Shown here: positions 1,384 to 63,036 of the stretch, piece by piece | Numbering within the stretch: position 1 is the first letter of the stretch | How the letters are laid out: each line of letters opens with the position of its first letter | Assembly: GCF_031656915.1 (NCBI RefSeq) | Contig: NZ_CP134227.1 | Location: 372,001-436,000 of the forward strand | Origin: Nocardioides marmorisolisilvae | GTDB taxonomy: Bacteria; Actinomycetota; Actinomycetes; Propionibacteriales; Nocardioidaceae | Direction of reading: 5' to 3' | DNA: 64,000 nucleotides | Notes under the pieces: model-generated | Database searches by the model: none | Told to the model about the DNA's origin: nothing | Seen by the model: the letters and a program-made list of their open reading frames with translations, nothing else | Translations under genes and position numbers: made by a program

Positions 1384-3884
1384 TGCGCGCCCCCGTCTCA
1401 TGGATCCGCGAGTACGTCGACCTTCCGGACGACGTCACCGCCGCGGACCTGGCCGCCCGACTCACCGCACTCGGCCTCAAGCTCGAAGCGCTCGACCGGC
1501 CCGGCCACGACATCACCGGACCGCTGGTGATCGGCCGGGTGCTCAGCCGCGAGCCCGAGCCGCAGAAGAACGGCAAGACCATCAACTGGTGCCAGGTCGA
1601 CGTCGGCGTCGCCAACGGCACCGGCGAGCCCCAGGGCATCGTCTGTGGAGCGCACAACTTCGAGGTCGGCGATCTCGTCGTCGTCGTGCTGCCCGGGGGC
1701 GTGCTGCCAGGGAGCCAAGGGTCGGGCCCGGTGGAGATCTCCGCGCGGAAGACCTACGGGCACCTCTCCGCGGGGATGATCTGCTCCGCGAAGGAGCTGG
1801 GCCTGGGTGATGACCACTCCGGCATCATCGTGCTCCCCGCCGACGCGGGTCAGCCCGGCGACGACGTCTTCGAGCTCCTGCAGCTGCGTGACGAGGTCAT
1901 CGAGTTCGAGATCAACCCCGATCGCGCCTATGCGCTGTCGCTGCGGGGGATCGCCCGCGAGGCCGCCCTGGCGTACGACGTGCCCCTCCGCGACCCGGCC
2001 GAACGTGACACCCCGGCCGGCAACGACCAGGGGCAGCCCGTGGTCGTTGACGACCCCGGCGGCTGCCCCGTCTTCGTGACCCGCACCGTGACCGGCTTCG
2101 ACCCCGCCGCGCCGACGCCCCGCTGGATGGCTCGTCGGGTCCAGCTCGCCGGGATGCGCCCGATCAGCCTCGCGGTGGACATCACCAACTACGTGATGCT
2201 GGAGATCGGACAGCCCATCCACGGCTACGACCGTGACCGGCTGACCGGCCCGATCCGGGTGCGGCGTGCCGGCGAGGGAGAGCGGCTGACCACCCTCGAC
2301 GGGGTGGACCGGCGGCTGAGCGTCGAGGACCTGCTGATCACCGACGACACCGGGCCGATCGGGCTCGCCGGCGTGATGGGCGGTCGGACGACCGAGCTGT
2401 CCTCGACCACCACCAACATCGTGATCGAGGCCGCCCACTTCGAGCCGGTCAGCATCTTCCGGACCCAGAGGCGTCACAAGCTGCCGAGTGAGGCGTCCAA
2501 GCGATTCGAGCGTGGCGTCGACCCGACCGTGCCCCAGGCGGCGGCGGACCGGGTCGCCGAGCTGCTGGTCAGGTACGGCGGCGGCACGGTCGATCCTGGG
2601 GTGACCGTGGTCGGCGCTCCGCCGCCGGCGCGGACCGTCACCGCGACCACCGACCTTCCCGCCCGGGTGACCGGGATGCCGATCGACGCAGCCACCACGG
2701 TTGCTCACCTCGAGGCAGTCGGGTGCGCGGTCACCGTGGACGGTGCCGTGCTGACGGCCACCGTCCCACCGTGGCGGCCGGACCTGAGCGACCCCTTCGA
2801 CCTGGTCGAGGAGGTCGCCCGGATCGTCGGGTACGACCAGGTGCCGTCGGTCGTCCCGCGGCCGACCGCGGGCAAGGGGCTCACCCGGGAGCAGCGACTG
2901 CGTCGTCGGGTCGGTCGGTTCCTGGCCGGGGCCGGCGCGGTCGAGGTGCTCAACTTCCCGTTCGTGGGCGAGGCGGCCCTGGACGCACTGGGCCTTCCAG
3001 AGGGCGACCCGTGGCGGCGGACGGTGCGGCTGGCCAACCCGATCTCGAGCGAGGAGCCGTCGTACACCTCGACGCTGCTGCCCGGCGTGCTGCGCACGGC
3101 GGCTCGCAACCTGGGTCGGGGCGCGGCCGGTGTGGCGCTGTTCGAGACCGGCACGGTCGCGGTTCCGGTGGACCGGGGACCAGCACCGATCTACGGAGTG
3201 CAGATCCGCCCCTCATACGCCGAGGTCGGCAAGCTCGAGGAGGCGCTGCCCAGTCAGCCCTTGCACCTCGCGGTCGTGCTCGCCGGCGAGCACGACCGGT
3301 CCGGCTGGTGGGGCGCGGGCCGGACGGCCGGATGGGCGGACGCTGTCGGACTGGTCCGCGACCTCGCGACCGAGCTCGGAGTCAGTGCGGCGACGCGGAC
3401 CGCCTCACGGATGCCGTGGCACCCAGGCCGGTGTGCCGCGCTGGTGCTGGACGGCGGTGCTGAGCTCGGTCATGCGGGCGAGCTGCACCCACGGGTCTGC
3501 GCCGCCTTCGGCCTGCCACGCGGTACGGCGGCCCTGGAGATCGACCTCGACCTGCTCATGGCCGCAGCCGTCGACATCGTGCCCGCCCCGACGTTCTCCA
3601 CCTATCCGCTGGCCAAGGAGGACGTCGCGCTCGTGGTCGCCGACGACGTCCCGGCCGCGGACGTGGCGGCGACGCTGCGGGCCGGTGCCGGTGCGCTCTG
3701 CGAGTCGGTGCGGCTCTTCGATGTGTTCACCGGAGAGCAGGTGGGCGAGGGGCGCAAGTCGCTGGCCTTCGCGCTTCGCTTCCGCGCCTCGGATCGCACG
3801 CTGACCGAGGCGGAGACGGCTGCCGCGCGCGACGCCGCGGTGGCGCTGGCCGCCGAGCGGCACGCAGCCGTCCAACGGGTCTGA
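1383..3884 (+). CDS. pheT: phenylalanyl-tRNA synthetase beta subunit
   Basis: Beta subunit (833 aa, full length) of phenylalanyl-tRNA synthetase, responsible for tRNA binding and editing of misacylated Tyr. Domain order expected and visible: OB-fold tRNA-binding domain (about 40-150), B3/B4 editing domain (about 215-375; contains PSEASKRFERGVDP), B5, a catalytic-like core, and a C-terminal anticodon-binding FDX-ACB domain (about 740-833; STYPLAKEDVALVV). The ATG shares its A with the pheS stop (TGATG), so the two subunits should be translationally coupled. It converges on the next gene with only 9 nt between the two stops. Confidence 0.96.
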   Translation: MRAPVSWIREYVDLPDDVTAADLAARLTALGLKLEALDRPGHDITGPLVIGRVLSREPEPQKNGKTINWCQVDVGVANGTGEPQGIVCGAHNFEVGDLVVVVLPGGVLPGSQGSGPVEISARKTYGHLSAGMICSAKELGLGDDHSGIIVLPADAGQPGDDVFELLQLRDEVIEFEINPDRAYALSLRGIAREAALAYDVPLRDPAERDTPAGNDQGQPVVVDDPGGCPVFVTRTVTGFDPAAPTPRWMARRVQLAGMRPISLAVDITNYVMLEIGQPIHGYDRDRLTGPIRVRRAGEGERLTTLDGVDRRLSVEDLLITDDTGPIGLAGVMGGRTTELSSTTTNIVIEAAHFEPVSIFRTQRRHKLPSEASKRFERGVDPTVPQAAADRVAELLVRYGGGTVDPGVTVVGAPPPARTVTATTDLPARVTGMPIDAATTVAHLEAVGCAVTVDGAVLTATVPPWRPDLSDPFDLVEEVARIVGYDQVPSVVPRPTAGKGLTREQRLRRRVGRFLAGAGAVEVLNFPFVGEAALDALGLPEGDPWRRTVRLANPISSEEPSYTSTLLPGVLRTAARNLGRGAAGVALFETGTVAVPVDRGPAPIYGVQIRPSYAEVGKLEEALPSQPLHLAVVLAGEHDRSGWWGAGRTAGWADAVGLVRDLATELGVSAATRTASRMPWHPGRCAALVLDGGAELGHAGELHPRVCAAFGLPRGTAALEIDLDLLMAAAVDIVPAPTFSTYPLAKEDVALVVADDVPAADVAATLRAGAGALCESVRLFDVFTGEQVGEGRKSLAFALRFRASDRTLTEAETAAARDAAVALAAERHAAVQRV

Positions 3885-3893
3885 CCGGCGCGG

Positions 3894-6140
<2,247 letters not shown>

Positions 6141-53119: not shown

Positions 53120-53474
53120 GAACTCGTCTACCTCCATCGGAGAGTGACGGGACCGAGCTGTCGCGACGCGACACCGGCCCAGGGTCTGGATCCTCTCGGG
53201 TGGCATGGCCGGCACGAGGGAATGACCACCGAGACCCTTCCTGAGGGGCGTCATCGATGCCCGAGGACCGGGGCGTTGTCGAGGGAGCGTGCAGGGGGAG
53301 GGCGGCGACGATGACCCGGGGGCGCTAGCGGCGGCGGCCCACGACGTCGACGCCGTTCACCGAGGGCCCCGGAGTGCCACCGATCCGGCTTCTCGATGGT
53401 GAGGTTCTGTCGAGTTTGGGTACGTCGCCCCTGCCGAGGCTCCGAGCGGCGGGGCCGGGGTGCGGGAGCGATCG
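53120..53474. other. intergenic region, no gene recognised
   Basis: 355 nt. Open frames exist on the minus strand but none shows a recognisable domain or ribosome site. No hairpin terminator or repeat was seen. Confidence 0.4.
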
Positions 53475-54218
53475 ATGAGGATGTTCTGGCCGGAACCGCG
53501 AGGTCTGTCCACGGGCGGAGTGCCCGACGGAATGCCGATCCTGTCCCCGGGCAGACATCGGAGCCCCGCCACCGGCGGATGCTTCATGGAGATGGCGTCC
53601 TACCTCGCTGGCGAGACCTGGTCCGACCATCCGCGGTGCACGAATCCCACGCTGGCGCTGCTGGCCCGTGAGGTCAATGACCGCGTCGACGACGATCATC
53701 GGCGGCTGCTCGCACCGATGGTGCCTGACGTGGTCGGGATCGGGACGACGGATCCGCTAGCCCCGACCACGGTCGCCCGCGCATGCGCTTTGGCGGGCCT
53801 GGACGCGGGGGTCACGGGCACTCGGGCGCAGGCTGTGGGGTTGCTCCGCTGCGAGGCCGTGTTCAACGGAGTCACGGTCGCTGGTGAGCCGATGTTGTCC
53901 TCGGATGCCGAGGCGGCGCTCGCGGCCCGGCCCGTCGAACGTGCCTGGGCCGAACGGTTCGTCGCCGCAGCCTCCGGGGCCGGGTATCTCGCACCGCTTG
54001 AGTCCCCTCTGGACCATCACTCGGCCTCGGTGATCGTGGGCGCCGCGGTAACCGGGTTGGCGGCCGTCCCCGGCGGCAGCGCGCGCCTGGTCGACCTGCT
54101 CCGCTCCGCCATCACCAGCTGTCGGTCGGCCGCGGCGGCCCGGGCGGGCGACGTGGCGTGCGATCGGCGCCAGCGCCACCCGTTTCCACCCCGCTCGGAC
54201 GCCGCAGGTGCCAGTTGA
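53475..54218 (+). CDS. conserved actinobacterial hypothetical protein
   Basis: A 247-aa protein without known function. Its most distinctive part is GGCFMEMASYLAGETWSDHPRCTNP followed by LLAREVNDRVDDDHRRLLAPMVPDVVG, which I recall from uncharacterised actinobacterial proteins. The C-terminal ~40 residues are Arg/Ala-rich. ATG 53475 follows GGGAG; ATG 53481 is an alternative. It may be unlinked to the peptide operon, which begins 137 nt later. Confidence 0.7.
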   Translation: MRMFWPEPRGLSTGGVPDGMPILSPGRHRSPATGGCFMEMASYLAGETWSDHPRCTNPTLALLAREVNDRVDDDHRRLLAPMVPDVVGIGTTDPLAPTTVARACALAGLDAGVTGTRAQAVGLLRCEAVFNGVTVAGEPMLSSDAEAALAARPVERAWAERFVAAASGAGYLAPLESPLDHHSASVIVGAAVTGLAAVPGGSARLVDLLRSAITSCRSAAAARAGDVACDRRQRHPFPPRSDAAGAS

Positions 54219-54354
54219 GGCGGTTCGGCCCCGGTCCAGCGGATGGACATCGTGGCCCCTGAAGGTCGGCCCCGGTCAGCGCCTTGACCGCGGCACAGGT
54301 GTCAGCCCACGATCACAGGGGTACGACGGAGGAAACCCGTCGAGAGGAGCTCAG

Positions 54355-54564
54355 ATGACCACCACCCCTGAAGAGCCGTTGTCCGACCAGGACATCGAGG
54401 CCACCGACGCAACGGCCGGGTCGACGACCGGGACCCAGGACGCTGACGGCGTCGACGGTGACAGCACCGACACCGTCGACGGCGACAGCACCGACGGCGA
54501 CAGCACCGACACCGTCGACGGTGACGGCACCGATGGCGGCGACGCCGACGGCACGGACGCCTGA
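54355..54564 (+). CDS. 69-aa Asp/Gly/Thr repeat peptide, possible modified-peptide precursor
   Basis: A 69-aa acidic peptide. Residues 1-28 form a leader-like part (MTTTPEEPLSDQDIEATDAT). Residues 29-69 are almost only Asp, Gly, Ser, Thr and Val in repeats: GDSTDTV twice, GDSTD between them and a degenerate GDGTDGGDADGTDA end. AGAGGAG lies 6 nt before ATG 54355. No hydrophobic or Cys residue is present. It is followed 12 nt later by a JmjC-type oxygenase gene, then an Fe-S protein and an exporter, an arrangement suggestive of a ribosomally made, oxygenase-modified peptide. Alternative: a calcium-binding or disordered acidic protein. Confidence 0.65.
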   Translation: MTTTPEEPLSDQDIEATDATAGSTTGTQDADGVDGDSTDTVDGDSTDGDSTDTVDGDGTDGGDADGTDA

Positions 54565-54576
54565 GGCGCGGGCGCA

Positions 54577-55719
54577 GTGCCCGCACTGAACGGCACCGCG
54601 CTCGACCTGCTCACCGGCGACGCCCAGACCTTCATCGACAAGGTCTGGGCGTCGCGGGTGCACCTGCACCAGGTCGATCGGTCCGCCCTGGTCGACATCC
54701 TCGCGCTGGACGACGTCGACCGTCTTGTCACCGCATCCGGGCTGCGCACGCCGGCGCTGCGGGTGGTCCGGGACGGCCAGGTCTGCTCGTCGTCGGAATT
54801 CACCCGACAGGCCACCATCGCTGGCTCGCCGCTGACCGGACTGGTCGACGGCCGCAAGGCACTGGCGATGTACGACGACGGAGCGACCCTCGTGCTGCAG
54901 GGTCTGCACCGCTACTGGCCACCCCTGACGCAGCTGGTCCGTGAGCTCGAGCTCGCCCTGGGACACCCCTGCCAGGCCAACGCCTACCTGACCCCGCCGG
55001 GTTCGCAGGGCTTCGCCCGGCACAGCGACACCCACGACGTCTTCGTCTTCCAGACCCACGGACACAAGCAGTGGGAGATCGTCGAGGACGACACCGCGCG
55101 CGACATCGTCATGGAGCCCGGCCTGAGCATGTACCTGCCCACCGGCACGCCGCACTCCGCGCGCAGCCAGGCCGAGTCGTCCCTTCACGTGACCATCGGG
55201 GTCAACCGGACGACGTGGCGCGACCTCCTGCGTCGACGCGTCGATGCCGTGCTCGCCGACGACCGATACGACACACCGCTTCCCGCCGGCTTCATCGAGG
55301 ACCCCGACCGCCTCGCCGGACCGCTGGAGGCTGAGCTCGCCGGACTGGTCGACCGACTCGCGGCCCTTGCCGCCGACGATGTGGCGACCCTGACGGCCGA
55401 GCGGTTCCTGCGGGACCGCGCCCCGGCGATGCTCGGCGCACTGGGCGACCGGGTCCGGCTTCCCCAGCTCGACGACCTGACCCGGCTGGAGCGCCGTCCG
55501 ACCGCGGCCTGCCTGCTGCGCGACGACGGCGACCGGCTCCGGGTGCTGCTCGGCGATCGGGAGCTGCGGATGCCGATCAGGCTCAGACCGGCCATGGAGA
55601 TGGTGCGCGACCAGGCCTCGTTCGTGGTCGGCGACCTGTCCGCGTGCCTCGACCCGCAGAGCCGCCTGGTGCTCTGCCGACGGCTGGTGCGCGAGGGCTT
55701 GCTGCGGTTCCCGCGGTGA
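54577..55719 (+). CDS. JmjC/cupin 2-oxoglutarate Fe(II) oxygenase
   Basis: A 380-aa member of the RoxA/NO66 oxygenase group. The Fe ligands are H149 and D151 in RHSDTHDVFVFQTHGHKQWE and H193 in YLPTGTPHSAR; a helical N-terminal part precedes the jelly roll and a C-terminal winged-helix-like part follows. Family members hydroxylate ribosomal proteins. Here the neighbour is a repeat peptide rich in Asp, so Asp beta-hydroxylation is an attractive but untested idea. GTG 54577 has GAGGCG upstream. The stop overlaps the next GTG. Confidence 0.85.
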   Translation: MPALNGTALDLLTGDAQTFIDKVWASRVHLHQVDRSALVDILALDDVDRLVTASGLRTPALRVVRDGQVCSSSEFTRQATIAGSPLTGLVDGRKALAMYDDGATLVLQGLHRYWPPLTQLVRELELALGHPCQANAYLTPPGSQGFARHSDTHDVFVFQTHGHKQWEIVEDDTARDIVMEPGLSMYLPTGTPHSARSQAESSLHVTIGVNRTTWRDLLRRRVDAVLADDRYDTPLPAGFIEDPDRLAGPLEAELAGLVDRLAALAADDVATLTAERFLRDRAPAMLGALGDRVRLPQLDDLTRLERRPTAACLLRDDGDRLRVLLGDRELRMPIRLRPAMEMVRDQASFVVGDLSACLDPQSRLVLCRRLVREGLLRFPR

Positions 55720-56612
55720 GCGGCGCCGATCCGGCCTTCCGTTGCACCCGCTCGGAGGAGGACACCGGCGCCGATCCCGCCGGCAGCGCTTCGACGGTGC
55801 GTGCGTTCCTCCTCGTGGAGCTCGAGGGAGCCTGGGGGACCGATGCGCTGGCTGCTGCCCGGCTTCCCGCATCGGTACGGCGAATGCTGCGACGACTGGA
55901 GCCCGAGCACCGGGTCCGCCCGTTGATGATCCGCCGCCAGGGCCGGCGTACCGAAGGTGGCGGCGTGCACGTGTTCGCCGCCTGCACGGTGCCCGGCCGC
56001 CGCTGGGTCGAGCACGCTCGGATGGACGGCCACCAGGACCTTCTCGGGCTCGACCTCGCCGGCATGGTCGACGGGCACCGTCCCGGCCTCCCGGCGTACG
56101 ACGAGCCGCTGTTCTGCGTGTGCACCCATGGTCGTCACGACGCCTGCTGCGCCGAGCGCGGCCGGCCGGTCTGGGAGGCTCTGCGAGCGGTGGCACCGGA
56201 GCACACCTGGCAGGTCTCCCACATCGGTGGGGACCGGTTCGCCGGCAATGTGCTGGTGCTTCCCGACGGGCTCTACTACGGGCGGATGCAGCCGGCCGAC
56301 GCGGCCGATCTGGTGGCTGCCCATGCGCAGGGCGAGCTGCTGCTCGACCGGCTGCGCGGTCGAACTGCGCAGCCCTTCCCGGTGCAGGCGGCCGAGATCT
56401 ACCTGCGTCGTGCGCTGGGCCTCCTCGGTCGGGACGCCGTCCGGTTCGTCGGCCACCACCGCGATGGCGAGGTGACCGACGTGGATCTCGAGACCTCCGA
56501 GGGCCGGCACCTGGTGCGGGTGCGCAGCGCGCCCGGCCCTGCCCGCCAGCTGACCTGCCGGGCCGAAGGCCCGGGCCGGCCGCTGATCCACGAGCTGCTG
56601 TCGATCGGCTGA
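55716..56612 (+). CDS. sucrase/ferredoxin-like (Suc/Fer) protein
   Basis: A 298-aa protein of the Suc/Fer-like family (PF06999). The Cys-rich CVCTHGRHDACCAERG is the thioredoxin-like [2Fe-2S] ferredoxin motif, and HIGGDRFAGNVLVLPDG is the family's other hallmark. It probably carries electrons or an Fe-S cluster. It could supply reducing equivalents to the adjacent oxygenase, but that link is inferred from gene order. GTG 55716 overlaps the oxygenase stop. Confidence 0.85.
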   Translation: MSGADPAFRCTRSEEDTGADPAGSASTVRAFLLVELEGAWGTDALAAARLPASVRRMLRRLEPEHRVRPLMIRRQGRRTEGGGVHVFAACTVPGRRWVEHARMDGHQDLLGLDLAGMVDGHRPGLPAYDEPLFCVCTHGRHDACCAERGRPVWEALRAVAPEHTWQVSHIGGDRFAGNVLVLPDGLYYGRMQPADAADLVAAHAQGELLLDRLRGRTAQPFPVQAAEIYLRRALGLLGRDAVRFVGHHRDGEVTDVDLETSEGRHLVRVRSAPGPARQLTCRAEGPGRPLIHELLSIG

Positions 56613-56618
56613 GCGTCG

Positions 56619-58007
56619 ATGGAGCAGCCGACCGCGGACGGGTTGCGCCGGACGACGGCGCTGCTCTCGGTCGCGGTGCTCGGCTTCGCGGTCCAGCAGA
56701 CCGCGGTGGTGCCCGCGATCCAGGACATCGAGAGGTCGCTGCATGCACCACCGGAGTGGTCGGCGTGGCTGGTCACGCTCTACCTGGTGGTCGCCACTGT
56801 CGCGACGTTGGCACTGGGCCGATTGGCAGATCTCCACGGTCGGCGCCGGATGCTGCTGGTCGGAATGGTGGTCTTCGCGGTGGCGTCGGTCGGCGCAGCG
56901 GTCGCCCCGAGCATCCTCGTGCTGCTGCTCTGCCGGGCGCTGCAGGGGATCGGCGGCGCGGTTTACCCGCTGGCGCTGTCGATCGCCCGCGCACACGCAC
57001 CCGAGGGCGCGGCGACGACCGCGATCGCCCTGCTCACCGCTGCGTTCGGGGTCGGTACGGCGGTGGGCTTCGTGGCCGGCGGCCTGCTCTCCAGCTACGC
57101 GTCCTGGCGTTGGATCTTTGTGCTCGGAGCCGTGCTCGTTGGTGCGGGCGTGTTGATGCTCTGGCGGGGATTGGAGGAGACCGAGGGTCGTGCCACCGGC
57201 CGATTCGACCTGATCGGCACGGCGGTCCTCGCGCTGAGCACAGTCGGGCTGCTCGCCGCGCTGACGCTCGCAGCCGGGGCCGGTTGGAGTTCCCCCGAGG
57301 TGGTCGGCCTGCTGGTGCTCTCGGCCGGGTCCGCCGGCGGCTGGATCGCGATGCAACGTCGGGCGGTGGACCCGCTCATCGACCTGCACGTGCTGTCGAA
57401 CCGGTCGGTGGCTGCGGCCAACCTCGCCACGGTGGCGATCGGGTGGTCGATGTTCAGCGCGTTCCTCCTGGTGCCGCGGTTCGCCCGTCTCACTCCGGAG
57501 CACTCCGCCTACGGGCTCGGGGCGGACAGCGCCATGGTGGGGCTGATCCTGCTGCCGATCGCCGTCGGCCAGATCGTGGCGTCACTCGCCGCCGGCCGGT
57601 TGATCGGACGGGTGGGCGCGACGGTCGTGCTGGGCACTGCGCTGCTCGTCCTGGCCGCGGCGGGCGCGGTCCTTGCCGTGGACCGGACCAGTGTCCCGCT
57701 GACACTGCTGGGCACCCTCCTGCTCGGCCTGGGAGCCGGATCCGGCCTCCAGTCGGGCAGCGCGGTGGCGACCGAGGCAGTGGCCCCGGACGTAGCCGGC
57801 ATCTCAGCCTCGGTGAACAGCACCACCCGACGACTCGCCGGTGGCGTCGGAGGACAGGTGAGCGTTCTGGTGCTGACCGCGTTCGCTGCCGGCTCGACAC
57901 TACGGCCGTCGGGCTTCACCATCGCCTATCTGGTCGGCGTCGGTCTCTGCGTGGTGGGGGTGACGGTGACGGTGAGCGTGCGGTTGTTCGCCCGGTCCAC
58001 CGCCTGA
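56619..58007 (+). CDS. MFS exporter, DHA2 family
   Basis: A 462-aa multispan transporter (about 13-14 helices). Motif A is LGRLADLHGRRRMLLVG and motif C TAAFGVGTAVGFVAGGLL. It begins 6 nt after the Suc/Fer gene and is probably the last gene of that operon, a plausible exporter for a product of the upstream genes. Its 3' end overlaps the convergent gene by 82 nt. Confidence 0.9.
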   Translation: MEQPTADGLRRTTALLSVAVLGFAVQQTAVVPAIQDIERSLHAPPEWSAWLVTLYLVVATVATLALGRLADLHGRRRMLLVGMVVFAVASVGAAVAPSILVLLLCRALQGIGGAVYPLALSIARAHAPEGAATTAIALLTAAFGVGTAVGFVAGGLLSSYASWRWIFVLGAVLVGAGVLMLWRGLEETEGRATGRFDLIGTAVLALSTVGLLAALTLAAGAGWSSPEVVGLLVLSAGSAGGWIAMQRRAVDPLIDLHVLSNRSVAAANLATVAIGWSMFSAFLLVPRFARLTPEHSAYGLGADSAMVGLILLPIAVGQIVASLAAGRLIGRVGATVVLGTALLVLAAAGAVLAVDRTSVPLTLLGTLLLGLGAGSGLQSGSAVATEAVAPDVAGISASVNSTTRRLAGGVGGQVSVLVLTAFAAGSTLRPSGFTIAYLVGVGLCVVGVTVTVSVRLFARSTA

Positions 58008-58284: not shown

Positions 58285-59769
58285 TCATCCCCTCACGGAC
58301 TGGTCGGTGCTGGGCTCCTCGTCCTGCTGCGACTCCGCGTCGCCGACGTCGTCCTCGTCGTGTTCCTCGTCCTCGTCCTGCGGGCCCCAGCGGATCCACA
58401 GCGGACTCTCGGTGAGCTCCCGCTCGGTCTCGTCGGACTCCTCCTGCTGCTCGGCCGCCTCGCGGCGCACGTGGTTGCTCGCGGCGCGGTGGGCCAGCAG
58501 CGCCGCCACCACCGGCAGCACGAGCACGCACACGCGCAGGGTGTCGCGGACCGTCTCGATGGTGGCGCCGCTGAGCTGGACGATGAGCTCCTCGCCCGCG
58601 GCGAGCAGCAGGATCGAGTAGAAGCCGATCGCCCAGACGCCGATCGCGAAGCGGCGCGGGCTCGACATCGGCCCTGCGGCAATGTGGTGGGTGCCCCGGT
58701 CGCCGGTGAGGCGTCGGTCGATGAACGGCCAGAGATAGAGCACTGCGAAGGTGAGCCCGGGCAGCAGGACCGCGGGCCAGAACTGGTCTGGGATCGTGAA
58801 GCCCCAGAAATGCAGCTCGACGGGCGGGAACATCCGCAGCGCTCCCTCGACCCAGGCGATGTACCAGTCCGCCACCGACGGCGACATGATCGTCGAGCTC
58901 TTGAACTCGCCCCAGACCCAGACCGGGTTGATCTGCACCAGGCCGCCCATCAGGAAGCACACCGCGGCGACGACGGAGAACAACGACAGAGACCGCAGGG
59001 CGTACGACGGCCACATCCGCGACCCGACGACGTTGGAGTCGCGGTGCCCGGGCCCCGCGAAGTGGCTGTGCTTCTGCCGAATCAGCACGGCGAGGTGGAT
59101 CCCGATGAGCCCGGCGATCGCCACCGGCACCACGAAGACGTGCAGGATGTAGAGCCGGCCGATGATGTACGGCCCGGGGAAGCCCGCGCCGAAGACCAGG
59201 TAGGCGAGCCAGCCCCCGACGAACGGCACCGCCTCCAGCGTGGAGTAGAAGATGTGCAGCCCCGTGCCGGAGAGCAGGTCGTCGGGCAGGGAGTAGCCGG
59301 CGAACGAGGTGAAGATGGCCGCGACGAACAGGGTCAGGCCGACCGTCCAGTTCAGCTCGCGCGGCTTGCGGAACATGCCGGTGAAGAAGATCCGGCAGAG
59401 GTGGAGCGTGATGGCCGCGATGAAGATCAGCGCGGCCCAGTGGTGCACCTGCCGCATCAGCAGGCCGCCTCGGACGTCCCAGCTGAGCTGCACGGTGGAG
59501 GCGAACGCCGACGAGACGTCCTCACCGTGCAGGGGTTGGTAGCTACCGTCGTACACCTTCAGCGAGCTGCTCGGGTCGAAGAAGATGGCAAGGAAGGTGC
59601 CGGTGGCGACCAGCACCACGAAGCAGTAGAGCGCGATCTCGCCGAGCATGAAGGACCAGTGGTCGGGAAAGACCTTCCCGAGCGCGGTGCGCGCCATGTC
59701 GGCGTACCCGAGCCGTTCGTCGAGCCGCCGCAGGGTTCGGTCGCGGGCGGCGTCCACTGGTCCGCGCAT
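58285..59769 (-). CDS. qcrB: cytochrome bc complex cytochrome b subunit
   Basis: A 494-aa membrane protein with the two haem-b His pairs: RQVHHWAALIFIAAITLHL and HVFVVPVAIAGLIGIHLAV. The quinol-site PEWY-like region and the C-terminal helices follow, and an acidic, Gln/Glu-rich cytoplasmic tail ends it. ATG 59769 overlaps the qcrA stop. It takes part in quinol oxidation coupled to cytochrome c reduction. Confidence 0.94.
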   Translation of the reverse strand: MRGPVDAARDRTLRRLDERLGYADMARTALGKVFPDHWSFMLGEIALYCFVVLVATGTFLAIFFDPSSSLKVYDGSYQPLHGEDVSSAFASTVQLSWDVRGGLLMRQVHHWAALIFIAAITLHLCRIFFTGMFRKPRELNWTVGLTLFVAAIFTSFAGYSLPDDLLSGTGLHIFYSTLEAVPFVGGWLAYLVFGAGFPGPYIIGRLYILHVFVVPVAIAGLIGIHLAVLIRQKHSHFAGPGHRDSNVVGSRMWPSYALRSLSLFSVVAAVCFLMGGLVQINPVWVWGEFKSSTIMSPSVADWYIAWVEGALRMFPPVELHFWGFTIPDQFWPAVLLPGLTFAVLYLWPFIDRRLTGDRGTHHIAAGPMSSPRRFAIGVWAIGFYSILLLAAGEELIVQLSGATIETVRDTLRVCVLVLPVVAALLAHRAASNHVRREAAEQQEESDETERELTESPLWIRWGPQDEDEEHDEDDVGDAESQQDEEPSTDQSVRG

Positions 59770-60629
59770 CACCACCCCCACCAGGCGGCGCCGGGCGCGC
59801 GAGTGAACTCGCCGGTGGCGATCAGGTAGCCCTCGCTGTCCAGGGCGAGGGGGAGCTGGGGGAGCGGGTGCGCGGCGGGGCCCTCCACGGGCTTGCCGCC
59901 GTCGAGGACGTCGAAGACCGAGTGGTGGCAGGGACAGAGCAGTTGGGCGGACTCGTCGGAGTAGAGGCCCACCGGGCATCCGGCGTGGGTGCACAGCTTG
60001 GAGTAGGCGATCACCCCGTCCGCCACCCAGTCCCGGCGCGAGGCGGGCAGCTCGAGCTGCTCCGGGTCGACCCGGATCAGGAGGGTGGCACCAGCGGACT
60101 GGCGAGGGTCCCAGGTCGCCGGGAAGACGGTGAGCACCGACCCCACGGCGAGGTCGTCGGGTCGGACCTGCTCGCCACCCTCGGTCACCACGGCGTCGCC
60201 GGCCCTCCACGGGCTGTCCGACAGCAGCGCGTGCGCCCCCGGCCCGAGGTTCCGGGTGGGGAAGAGCGAGCGCAACGGGAACAGCGCCGCCAGGCCGATC
60301 GAGCCCGCCGCAACGCCGAGCATCGACCAGAGCACTCCGGAGCGCGGCACCTTCTGCTCGGTGAGCGCGGTGCGGAACCGCTCGAAGCCGGTGTCGTCGG
60401 TCGGCCCGACCGCGCGCTCCTCGACGTAGTCGGGCTCGTCCTCGTCGATCAGCTGCGCCCAGATGCCCAGGCCGATGCCGAGGAACAGCAGCGCCCAGCC
60501 CAGGGACGCGCCGTAGGCCCGGTTCCCCCAGTCCATGACGTACGACGTCGCGAAGGCGGCCGCCCCGAGCACGGAGAGGGCGAAGCAGATCAGCACGCTG
60601 CGAGGTGCGTGTGCGTCCCGGTCGGTCAT
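59769..60629 (-). CDS. qcrA: Rieske iron-sulfur subunit
   Basis: A 286-aa Rieske protein. Three N-terminal membrane spans (the actinobacterial form) precede the [2Fe-2S] domain with CTHAGC and CPCHHS. Its start overlaps the qcrC stop (ATGA). Confidence 0.95.
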   Translation of the reverse strand: MTDRDAHAPRSVLICFALSVLGAAAFATSYVMDWGNRAYGASLGWALLFLGIGLGIWAQLIDEDEPDYVEERAVGPTDDTGFERFRTALTEQKVPRSGVLWSMLGVAAGSIGLAALFPLRSLFPTRNLGPGAHALLSDSPWRAGDAVVTEGGEQVRPDDLAVGSVLTVFPATWDPRQSAGATLLIRVDPEQLELPASRRDWVADGVIAYSKLCTHAGCPVGLYSDESAQLLCPCHHSVFDVLDGGKPVEGPAAHPLPQLPLALDSEGYLIATGEFTRAPGAAWWGW

Positions 60630-61438
60630 TGCTTCCTCCGTCGGCCGAGCAGCAGCAGGACGATGATCAGGATCGGCACCGGGACCGCCCAGGCGAAACT
60701 GCCCTCGAGGATCGGGCCGTATTGGTCGAGGCCGCCGCCGCCCCGGATCTGCCGGTTGCCGAGCATGGAGACGTAGCTGACCACGTCGTCGAGCTGGTCG
60801 TCGCTGAGCTGTCCGCGAGTGAACGGCGGCATCGGTCCGGGGCCGAGCCGCATCGCCTCCGCCACCTCGCGTGGGTCGTCGGCGAACAGTGACGGGACGA
60901 TCGTGCCGTCGGTGAGCACGACTCCGGTCCCCGAGGAGGAGTGGCAGGCGGCGCAGTTGCTGATGAACAGCGACTGGCCCTCCGCGACGTCGCCCGGCCG
61001 CACCTCGGGGATCGGCTCGCCTCCGCTGCCGAGCGAGTCGACGAAGCCGACGATCCGGCCGATCGTCGCCGCGTCGTACGCCGGCTTGTGCCGGCGCACC
61101 GTCTCGTCGGGCGAGCTGAGCGGCATCCGGCCCGTGCGTAGGTAGAAGTCGAGGGCAGCGGGCCCCTTGTCGGAGAGTCGGGGTGCCACCGAGGTGCCCT
61201 GCGCCTGCTGGCCGTGGCACCACGCGCAGTCCCGCAGGTAGACCTCCCGCCCAGACATCGACGGCGACGAGGTCGTCCGGGCGGTGGCAGGAGCGACGGC
61301 GCCATCGGTGCGTGCCGGGCCGTCGGGCGCCCGGGTGCTGGTCAGGACGAGGGCCACGAGTGCGATGACGGCGAGCACGCCCCCGGCCCGCAGCGCGCGG
61401 GCGCTGCGGGGACTGGTCGTCGTGGTCGTCCGGGTCAT
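60626..61438 (-). CDS. qcrC: dihaem cytochrome c subunit
   Basis: A 270-aa membrane-anchored dihaem cytochrome c. Haem sites are CAWCH (71-75) and CAACH (162-166); spans lie near 18-33 and 245-265. It replaces both cytochrome c1 and soluble cytochrome c in the actinobacterial bcc-aa3 supercomplex. Confidence 0.93.
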   Translation of the reverse strand: MTRTTTTTSPRSARALRAGGVLAVIALVALVLTSTRAPDGPARTDGAVAPATARTTSSPSMSGREVYLRDCAWCHGQQAQGTSVAPRLSDKGPAALDFYLRTGRMPLSSPDETVRRHKPAYDAATIGRIVGFVDSLGSGGEPIPEVRPGDVAEGQSLFISNCAACHSSSGTGVVLTDGTIVPSLFADDPREVAEAMRLGPGPMPPFTRGQLSDDQLDDVVSYVSMLGNRQIRGGGGLDQYGPILEGSFAWAVPVPILIIVLLLLGRRRKQ

Positions 61439-61439
61439 C

Positions 61440-61829
61440 TCACCTCAGGGTGTAGAGGTAGGCGGTGATGTCGATGGCGTCGCGGTGCGTCACGCCGAGG
61501 TCGGGCATGGCGTTCCCGGGCACCACCGACTGGGGGTCCTCGATCCAGTGCTCGAGGTTCTGCTCGGAGTTGGGCAGCACGCCGGCGACGTACCCGCGCC
61601 GGGAGAAGTGGGTCAGCGGCGGCCCGACGAGCCCGTCCGCGCCGGCGACGCCCGGGACCTCGTGGCAGCTACCGCACCCGTAGTGGCTGATCAGCGCGGC
61701 ACCGCGGCCCGGATCGCCGGTCCGCATCTGCTGCGGAGGGGCCTGACTGCTCTCGGGTCCAGCGCACCCGGCCGCGACGGCGGCCGCGGCCACCAGCGTG
61801 ACGAGCAGGACGAGGACGTTTCGCCTCAT
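61440..61829 (-). CDS. c-type cytochrome lipoprotein
   Basis: A 129-aa lipoprotein. The lipobox AAGC puts the lipidated Cys at 22; a haem site CGSCH (52-56) and the axial Met near 108 (GNAMPD) follow. Monohaem, smaller than QcrC. It may be an electron carrier within or beside the bcc-aa3 complex. The stop ends 2 nt before the qcrC ATG. Confidence 0.88.
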   Translation of the reverse strand: MRRNVLVLLVTLVAAAAVAAGCAGPESSQAPPQQMRTGDPGRGAALISHYGCGSCHEVPGVAGADGLVGPPLTHFSRRGYVAGVLPNSEQNLEHWIEDPQSVVPGNAMPDLGVTHRDAIDITAYLYTLR

Positions 61830-62665
61830 CGGATCCTCCCCAAGTCGGGACGGACGTCGGTCGTGTCCAAGAACAGCGCCCGTGCAGGATGGTCGCGGTC
61901 GAGGCCGCGCAGCCAGGAGGCGAACAGCACGATCGCTCCCAGCACGTACCCGAAGTCCATGGGGGCCCACATCACCAGCGCGCCGAGGTGCTGGTCGAGC
62001 ATCGGGTCGAGGCCCACTGCGCGTGCAGCGGCCGCCTGGGCCGGGTAGATCGGGTGCTGCGGAAACGTGAGCACGGCTCCGAGCGCGGCACCTGGCGGGA
62101 CCGCCACGACGAGGTAGAGGACGGCTTGCAGCCCGGTCAGGCGCCGCGGAGAGTCGCCCAGCAGGTGCCACCAGAACCACCACGCGGTGAGCAGGAAGGT
62201 GGCGTGCTCGCTCAGATGCACCAGCTCGTTGCGCACCGCGAGGTCGTAGGCGGCCGGCAGGTGCCAGGCCCACATCGAGCCGATGTGCAGCAGCCAGGCC
62301 AGTGGGGCCGCCAGCAGCAGCCCGGACGGAAGGTGGTGCGCGACCTTCACCACCGGACGACGGACCCCGGCCGGCAGCCCGGCGAGCAGTACCCGGCCCG
62401 GAGAGGACCAGGCCAGCAGCGGGCCGCAGACCATGATCAGGACGACGTGCTGGAGCATGTGGGTCCACAGCCGCTCCTCGAGGAGCTCGCCGAGTGGTGA
62501 GCCTGCCACCAGCACCAGCACGGCCACCGCGGTGGCCAGCGCCCACGGCCTGCCGCGCTGGGCTCGCCGGCCCTGGGCATGCCGGCGGAACCGGACGAGG
62601 CCGCGCAGGTAGCAGACCCACAGCACGAGCGACCCGGCCAGCAGCACGACCTCGACGATCCGCAT
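61826..62665 (-). CDS. CtaG-like (caa3) cytochrome oxidase assembly protein
   Basis: A 279-aa protein with about seven membrane helices. Conserved His-containing segments such as WTHMLQHVVLIMVCGPLLAW and LGALVMWAPMDFGYVLGA, and HLSEHATF, mark the caa3-type CtaG family that assembles the Cu site of the oxidase. ATG 62665 overlaps the previous stop by one base; GTG 62671 is an alternative. The 3' end overlaps the cytochrome lipoprotein by 4 nt. Confidence 0.85.
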   Translation of the reverse strand: MRIVEVVLLAGSLVLWVCYLRGLVRFRRHAQGRRAQRGRPWALATAVAVLVLVAGSPLGELLEERLWTHMLQHVVLIMVCGPLLAWSSPGRVLLAGLPAGVRRPVVKVAHHLPSGLLLAAPLAWLLHIGSMWAWHLPAAYDLAVRNELVHLSEHATFLLTAWWFWWHLLGDSPRRLTGLQAVLYLVVAVPPGAALGAVLTFPQHPIYPAQAAAARAVGLDPMLDQHLGALVMWAPMDFGYVLGAIVLFASWLRGLDRDHPARALFLDTTDVRPDLGRIR

Positions 62666-63036
62666 CAGCACGGCTCCACCACCAGCAGCCCGATCGCGCC
62701 GGCCGTGATCGCGACCAGCGCCATCACGTCGAGGAAGAGCCCCATGACCAGCATCAGCCCGGTCCGGCCGGCGGCGAGGACGTCAGGGTCGAGGGCCCGC
62801 AGCCGGCGCCGTACGGCGAGGTTGGTGATCACCGCGGCGAGCGCGAGCAGCCACGGCAGCACCGTCGCTCCGGCCTCCACCCAGCCCGCGGTGGCACCGC
62901 GGCCCGCTCGCTGGAGGATGTTGCCGTCCAGCGAGCCGTAGCAGGACACCTCGGCGACGCTCCAGGCGATGCCCAGGTGCAGGGCCCACGCGAGCACGCC
63001 GCCCCCAGTGGCGAACCAGATCATCCACGCCTTCAT
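62665..63036 (-). CDS. small membrane protein of the oxidase cluster
   Basis: A 123-aa protein with three or four membrane segments (WFATGGGVLAWALHLGIAW; LPWLLALAAVITNLAV; LMLVMGLFLDVMALVAITAG). No motif identifies a reaction. ATG 63036 lies 10 nt after the ctaE stop. Confidence 0.75.
   Translation of the reverse strand: MKAWMIWFATGGGVLAWALHLGIAWSVAEVSCYGSLDGNILQRAGRGATAGWVEAGATVLPWLLALAAVITNLAVRRRLRALDPDVLAAGRTGLMLVMGLFLDVMALVAITAGAIGLLVVEPC

Follow-up and report, generated by a model that had tools for sequence, protein, structure and literature searches.

A conserved gene pair of acidic repeat peptide and JmjC oxygenase in Actinomycetota resembles a ribosomal peptide modification system

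β-Hydroxylation of Asp occurs in ribosomally synthesized and post-translationally modified peptides (RiPPs) through CinX of cinnamycin and CanE of canucin. SmaO is a further RiPP oxygenase for this reaction, acting in a graspetide (as cited in PMC13097080). JmjC enzymes have also entered RiPP pathways: BipG hydroxylates a RiPP precursor (PMC12707348), BpmG works in a RiPP pathway (PMC12257519), and RRE-Finder 2025 reports fusions of a RiPP recognition element (RRE) with JmjC (PF08007), with bacterial homologues in RiPP-like contexts (PMC12710340). Here we analyse a locus in a 64,000-nucleotide stretch of Nocardioides marmorisolisilvae DNA (NZ_CP134227.1, positions 372,001 to 436,000; hereafter the window) from a complete genome of 4.23 Mb, in which a gene for a 69-amino-acid acidic repeat peptide directly precedes genes for a JmjC_2 oxygenase and a Suc/Fer-like ferredoxin. 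The peptide and the oxygenase form a conserved pair throughout Actinomycetota, and the cassette seems to represent a class of modified bacterial peptide not described before. The features of the locus, in window coordinates, are as follows.

54344..54349, + strand: Shine-Dalgarno-like GAGGAG, read in the sequence 5 nt 5' of the peptide start
54355..54564, + strand: acidic repeat peptide, precursor-like, 69 amino acids, putative substrate; homologous open reading frame (ORF) in 80/81 relatives
54379..54405, + strand: leader (recognition) motif LSDQDIEAT; family form L-x-D-[DE]-[DE]-[IM]-x-T
54436..54561, + strand: Asp-rich repeat core QDADGVDGDSTDTVDGDSTDGDSTDTVDGDGTDGGDADGTDA, 39-bp period, 2.2 copies, 91% match
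54577..55719, + strand: JmjC_2 2-oxoglutarate oxygenase, 380 amino acids, GTG start (PF08007, AlphaFold2 model, PDB folds)
55021..55029, + strand: Fe(II) ligands H149-x-D151, invariant in 34/34 homologues
55153..55155, + strand: Fe(II) ligand H193, invariant in 34/34 homologues
55483..55710, + strand: winged-helix, RRE-like domain, residues 303-378, putatively leader-binding (AlphaFold2 model, Foldseek)
55716..56612, + strand: Suc/Fer-like protein (thioredoxin-like ferredoxin), GTG start, putative [2Fe-2S] redox partner (PF06999, gene order in relatives)
56121..56234, + strand: putative cluster-ligand region C136-X8-C145 ... H169-X3-D173 (conservation, Aim32 motif)
56619..58007, + strand: major facilitator superfamily (MFS) gene, PF07690 MFS_1

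The locus shares something with each described system and departs from each. Like BipG and BpmG of biphenomycin, it would pair a JmjC 2-oxoglutarate (2OG) oxygenase with a ribosomal precursor peptide; BipG, however, acts late, on ornithine, in a multi-enzyme cluster with multinuclear non-heme iron (MNIO) and B12-dependent radical S-adenosylmethionine (SAM) enzymes and a protease, whereas JmjC is the sole conserved modifying enzyme of our cassette and the core consists of Asp repeats without Arg or ornithine. The RRE-Finder 2025 fusions likewise join JmjC_2 to an RRE-like βββ-ααα domain, and through them the field is already near the cassette; the accessible part of that paper names no precursor, Asp-repeat peptide or Suc/Fer partner, and its homologues may include our family (PMC12710340). 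SmaO, CinX and CanE are alike in the 2OG-dependent β-hydroxylation of precursor Asp that we propose, but they modify one or few Asp in a compact core, as against dozens in tandem repeats here. A single α-ketoglutarate enzyme is known to hydroxylate several consecutive residues (PMC12636437). NO66, MINA53 and YcfD share the fold, the HxD...H site and the C-terminal winged helix, but act on ribosomal proteins, whereas the cassette has a dedicated upstream peptide gene and an accessory distribution. A full-text literature search, to which subscription papers were beyond reach, returned no description of the cassette or of an Asp-repeat precursor.

An earlier reading made from the sequence alone (the sequence-only reading) had described four tightly packed ORFs with an intact H149-x-D151...H193 triad, and had recognized no named peptide class. 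The four ORFs and the motifs were all found as described: the peptide stop lies 12 nt before the JmjC gene, the JmjC and Suc/Fer genes overlap by 4 nt, and 6 nt separate Suc/Fer from the MFS gene. Pfam assigns the three larger proteins to JmjC_2 (PF08007, E = 5e-20), Suc_Fer-like (PF06999, E = 3e-19) and MFS_1 (PF07690, E = 8e-41), and the window peptide, MTTTPEEPLSDQDIEATDATAGSTTGTQDADGVDGDSTDTVDGDSTDGDSTDTVDGDGTDGGDADGTDA, matches no family in Pfam, NCBIfam or PHROGs, which agrees with the absence of a recognized class.

Searches for the JmjC gene covered 58 relatives together with 396 genomes drawn from across the phylum, and 4-5 kb of sequence surrounding the matches was fetched. Under a profile built without one doubtful row, homologues split sharply by score into peptide-linked members and weaker ones; members were those scoring at least 300 bits, and linkage was counted where at least 200 nt of upstream sequence was present (n = 81). 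An upstream ORF with at least 12% Asp in its last ~50 codons, ending at most 200 nt from the gene, accompanied 80 of the 81 members, compared with 29 of 322 other genes of the same loci under the same measure. At a threshold of at least 20% Asp, the counts were 58/81 and 2/322. None of the 11 weaker JmjC homologues had an Asp-rich upstream peptide (Asp never above 12% by this measure). By eye, 79-80 of the upstream ORFs are repeat peptides. The sequence-only reading had named exactly this check, a repeat ORF consistently 5' of the JmjC gene, and its peptide-enzyme pairing thus held across the phylum.

Members are widespread and patchy. About 51 of the 396 sampled Actinomycetota genomes carry one (about 13%, counted from the search table), as do 11 of 24 genomes of the genus; all named relatives with the enzyme are Nocardioides or Nocardioidaceae, and N. 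zhouii is one carrier of the cassette. The cassette JmjC is the sole PF08007 protein found in the window's genome, and a search for phage copies of the enzyme returned none. At one locus (L144, genome G024) the JmjC frame is broken, with matches in two or three frames, beside intact peptide and Suc/Fer genes, a result of sequencing error or decay.

The upstream peptides have the build of RiPP precursors, with a conserved leader, a variable core and a gene adjoining that of the enzyme. Shine-Dalgarno sites comparable to that of the window precede nearly all of them, allowing start codons to be assigned. The leader of the window peptide is MTTTPEEPLSDQDIEAT, and homologues carry N-terminal motifs such as LSDDDIETV, LGDDEMTTE and LTDEDIETV. 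Of the 80 peptides, 59 carry a strict form, [DE][DE][DE][IM]xT, and 70 a loose form, where shuffles would give 0.2 and 5.5, respectively; the window's own LSDQDIEAT is a variant that matches neither. Two clean, ungapped leader groups of five (two others misaligned and one short were left out) gave ratios of nonsynonymous to synonymous change (pN/pS) of 0.25 and 0.33, indicating purifying selection.

Behind this leader the peptides vary widely. Among the 80, length ranges from 48 to 244 amino acids (median 82), the median net charge is -24, Cys is absent and Tyr almost so. Asp and Ala occur in 100% of the 80 cores, Gly in 99% and Thr in 98%; Asp, being present in all, is the sole residue with a reactive side chain common to every core. 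Core type differs by clade: Nocardioidaceae have DADGTDGDSTD, other clades EGPADGGADGTPGVSDGGADGG or EGPADGGSNPGGHDGGADGT; cores of the EGPADGG type are Gly-rich and less acidic. Three loci (L072, L073 and L120), all without a Suc/Fer gene, have unusual cores that repeat AGDGAGDAAG, SADGTDQGVEGGTYGPRDAS or PTEDDENLDAPGEHSQDTGDE.

On the enzyme side, the full-length AlphaFold2 model (predicted local distance difference test, pLDDT, 92) has its HxD...H iron site within a double-stranded β-helix, as expected of JmjC_2. Its best PDB fold matches are NO66, MINA53, YcfD and Bacillus subtilis YxbC, and a profile search agrees. The C-terminal 99 residues, modelled alone, again gave pLDDT 92, with the order ββββ-ααα. 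Foldseek placed the NO66/MINA53/YcfD winged helix first for this domain, followed almost only by RiPP leader-binding domains (ThcOx, LynD, the PbtF RRE, PqqD, McbB and TbiB1); these RRE matches had E values of 0.016-0.3 and probabilities up to 0.99. The likeness is seen by fold only, as neither Pfam nor a PDB profile search matched PqqD or RRE sequences to the domain.

Peptide type and enzyme lineage segregate together. All 21 EGPADGG-type peptides, found by pattern, accompany one JmjC clade (95/98 support) wherever the enzyme could be placed; one enzyme (L150) was too short and was left out of the tree. This clade includes two Nocardioidaceae loci, L147 and L115, of the window's genus or family, whose relatives carry the other type. 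Because these two break from their relatives, repeat type tracks enzyme clade and not species. A single origin of the peptide-linked enzymes was not supported as monophyly: the tree needs 5 label changes and has long branches. A second association concerns the leader. In L115, L117, L118 and L146 the leader motif is missing or degenerate, and the winged helices of the same four lack P333, D327, the D359-S362 loop and E373, all nearly invariant in the remaining members.

The Suc/Fer-like gene, which the sequence-only reading had taken for a [2Fe-2S] protein gene, comes next in 73 of the 82 members with room for one and in 0 of 12 other homologues. With its PF06999 domain and CX8C motif, the protein belongs with the Apd1/Aim32 type of thioredoxin-like ferredoxins, whose Aim32 motif is CX8C / HX3H (PMC8482512). 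It differs in the second His, which is Asp in the cassette-linked proteins: HX3D replaces HX3H in 66 linked copies, so that the bis-His pair is lost. HX3H is kept only in unlinked paralogues, in L033, in L034 and elsewhere in the window's genome. In L033 and L034 this second Suc/Fer gene (about 3835-4548) is upstream of the cassette, some 2.2 kb before the JmjC stop.

We favour, at a probability of roughly 0.6, a RiPP-like cassette whose JmjC enzyme recognizes the leader and hydroxylates the repeat core, most likely at the Asp β-carbon. The small gene would encode the precursor, in which a short N-terminal leader, L-x-D-D-D-I-x-T, is followed by a repeat core of Asp, Gly, Ala and Thr that lacks Cys. 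The C-terminal winged-helix domain would bind the leader, and the Fe(II)/2OG site would then hydroxylate core residues repeatedly. The Suc/Fer-like protein may be a [2Fe-2S] redox accessory that perhaps maintains iron in the reduced state, whether that of the enzyme or iron bound by the product. That product would be a polyhydroxylated peptide of strongly negative charge that probably binds metal; the conserved cassette encodes neither export nor proteolysis. The system works like a RiPP pathway and is a candidate for the class, with a putative modification and without a conserved protease or exporter. A bolder version, which we entertain only tentatively, is a phylum-wide undescribed class of modified ribosomal peptide in which a single RRE-JmjC enzyme poly-β-hydroxylates tandem Asp repeats; the product, a polyhydroxy-aspartate peptide free of Cys, would bind iron or calcium and act together with the variant HX3D thioredoxin-like ferredoxin.

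Several observations weigh against this proposal. Ribosomal oxygenases have the winged helix as well and need no leader, so its RRE-likeness is no proof of leader binding, and the joint loss of leader motif and winged-helix residues falls within one clade and perhaps reflects a single event. Nine members lack the Suc/Fer gene, which is therefore probably accessory. Linkage itself has exceptions: in L116 the upstream ORF is acidic and non-repetitive, and L077 is an exception to the pairing, its locus, like that of L113, running off the contig. Unlike in most RiPP clusters, no conserved protease or transporter was found near the cassette, the Streptomyces clavuligerus variant described below excepted. 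The Ala or Gly backbone could also be the target in place of Asp.

This last point leads to the alternative that survives best, a RiPP-like pair with other JmjC chemistry, such as oxidative decarboxylation, a cross-link, or backbone Cα hydroxylation or cleavage at Gly or Ala. In the cores these two residues are as universal as Asp, and α-ketoglutarate enzymes of RiPPs perform backbone cleavage and Cys-Tyr cross-linking (PMC12636437). We nevertheless consider such chemistry unlikely, if worth keeping in view: the solved structural relatives are side-chain hydroxylases, and the peptides offer no Cys and next to no Tyr.

The peptide could instead work unmodified, as an acidic, disordered peptide that buffers Fe or Ca for the oxygenase and its Fe-S neighbour or delivers the metal to them. 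Its charge, lack of Cys, Asp-dense repeats and variable length fit such a role, as does a cassette holding two iron proteins. A conserved N-terminal motif together with a leader-binding-like enzyme domain is nonetheless how a precursor system is laid out, cores of the EGPADGG type are Gly-rich and less acidic, and IdeR, Zur and Fur patterns upstream of 78 peptides showed no excess over shuffles. We regard a metal-buffer role as distinctly unlikely.

A ribosomal oxygenase beside unrelated genes was the alternative left by the sequence-only reading: the JmjC protein would be an ordinary RoxA/NO66-type enzyme acting on a ribosomal protein, with the peptide as bystander or regulator. Although its closest solved relatives are indeed NO66, MINA53 and YcfD, winged helix included, this alternative is contradicted by the peptide linkage and by the patchy distribution, as well as by the tracking of peptide type by enzyme clade. 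Judged by distribution only, the enzyme lacks the broad housekeeping conservation of RoxA/NO66 even though no other PF08007 protein was found in the genome, and presence in 11 of 24 genus genomes with patchy occurrence across the phylum makes a housekeeping ribosomal oxygenase improbable in our estimation. A translational attenuator or coupling leader, whose codon runs would sense Asp/Gly/Thr tRNA charging for the JmjC gene, is hardly credible. The short ORF does lie immediately upstream, 12 nt from that gene or overlapping it, and is rich in one amino acid, but the peptides reach 244 amino acids, their N-terminal motif is conserved at the amino-acid level, core types differ in residues, JmjC stands outside amino-acid pathways, and no Rfam element was found near the cassette.

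Of the interpretation offered by the sequence-only reading, the peptide/JmjC pair and the usual Suc/Fer partner stood, and the MFS exporter fell away. A phmmer search against the loci of about 80 relatives returned no homologue of the MFS protein, even from the closest relative (72% JmjC identity, 6.8 kb of downstream sequence), and we rejected the gene as a part of the cassette; the label 'exporter' rests on MFS homology. Clustering of neighbouring genes in the relatives' loci yielded no further recurrent family and, with the MFS gene unlinked, we count no conserved exporter or protease. In the window, an apparent cytochrome bc1/cytochrome c oxidase cluster (cytochrome b, Rieske, cytochrome c and related ORFs, recognized by eye) follows at 58285-62671 on the minus strand, and the ORF upstream of the peptide (53460-54218, plus strand) has no Pfam match, nor has it from an inner start at about 53685.

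Two distant loci were also noticed. On plasmid pF1D18A of Streptomyces clavuligerus (L151:2655-4050), a 48-amino-acid Asp/Pro-rich ORF annotated as hypothetical precedes a JmjC 'cupin' gene, with genes for an S9 peptidase and an ABC transporter after it, a distant variant that may include processing and export. On pSCAT of Streptantibioticus cattleyicolor (L152:2340-6135), a more distant JmjC domain lies inside one 596-amino-acid ORF with an apparent second oxygenase domain, with a short ORF that ends in ...MSISLESIDVEVENQSFGMITASTGCFSNIGGPSC on one side and a radical SAM protein on the other, probably another RiPP cluster.

If the proposal is true, a common and unnamed peptide-modification system would be present in about 13% of sampled genomes of a well-mined phylum, and would probably have been overlooked because its precursor is a low-complexity small ORF and its enzyme is annotated only as 'cupin domain-containing protein'. 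With only two genes, it would offer a way to test JmjC enzymes as modifiers of RiPPs, repeat-template hydroxylation, and an RRE-like role for the winged helix that NO66 and MINA53 share. A ferredoxin-like subfamily whose ligand motif is altered would also gain a cellular role.

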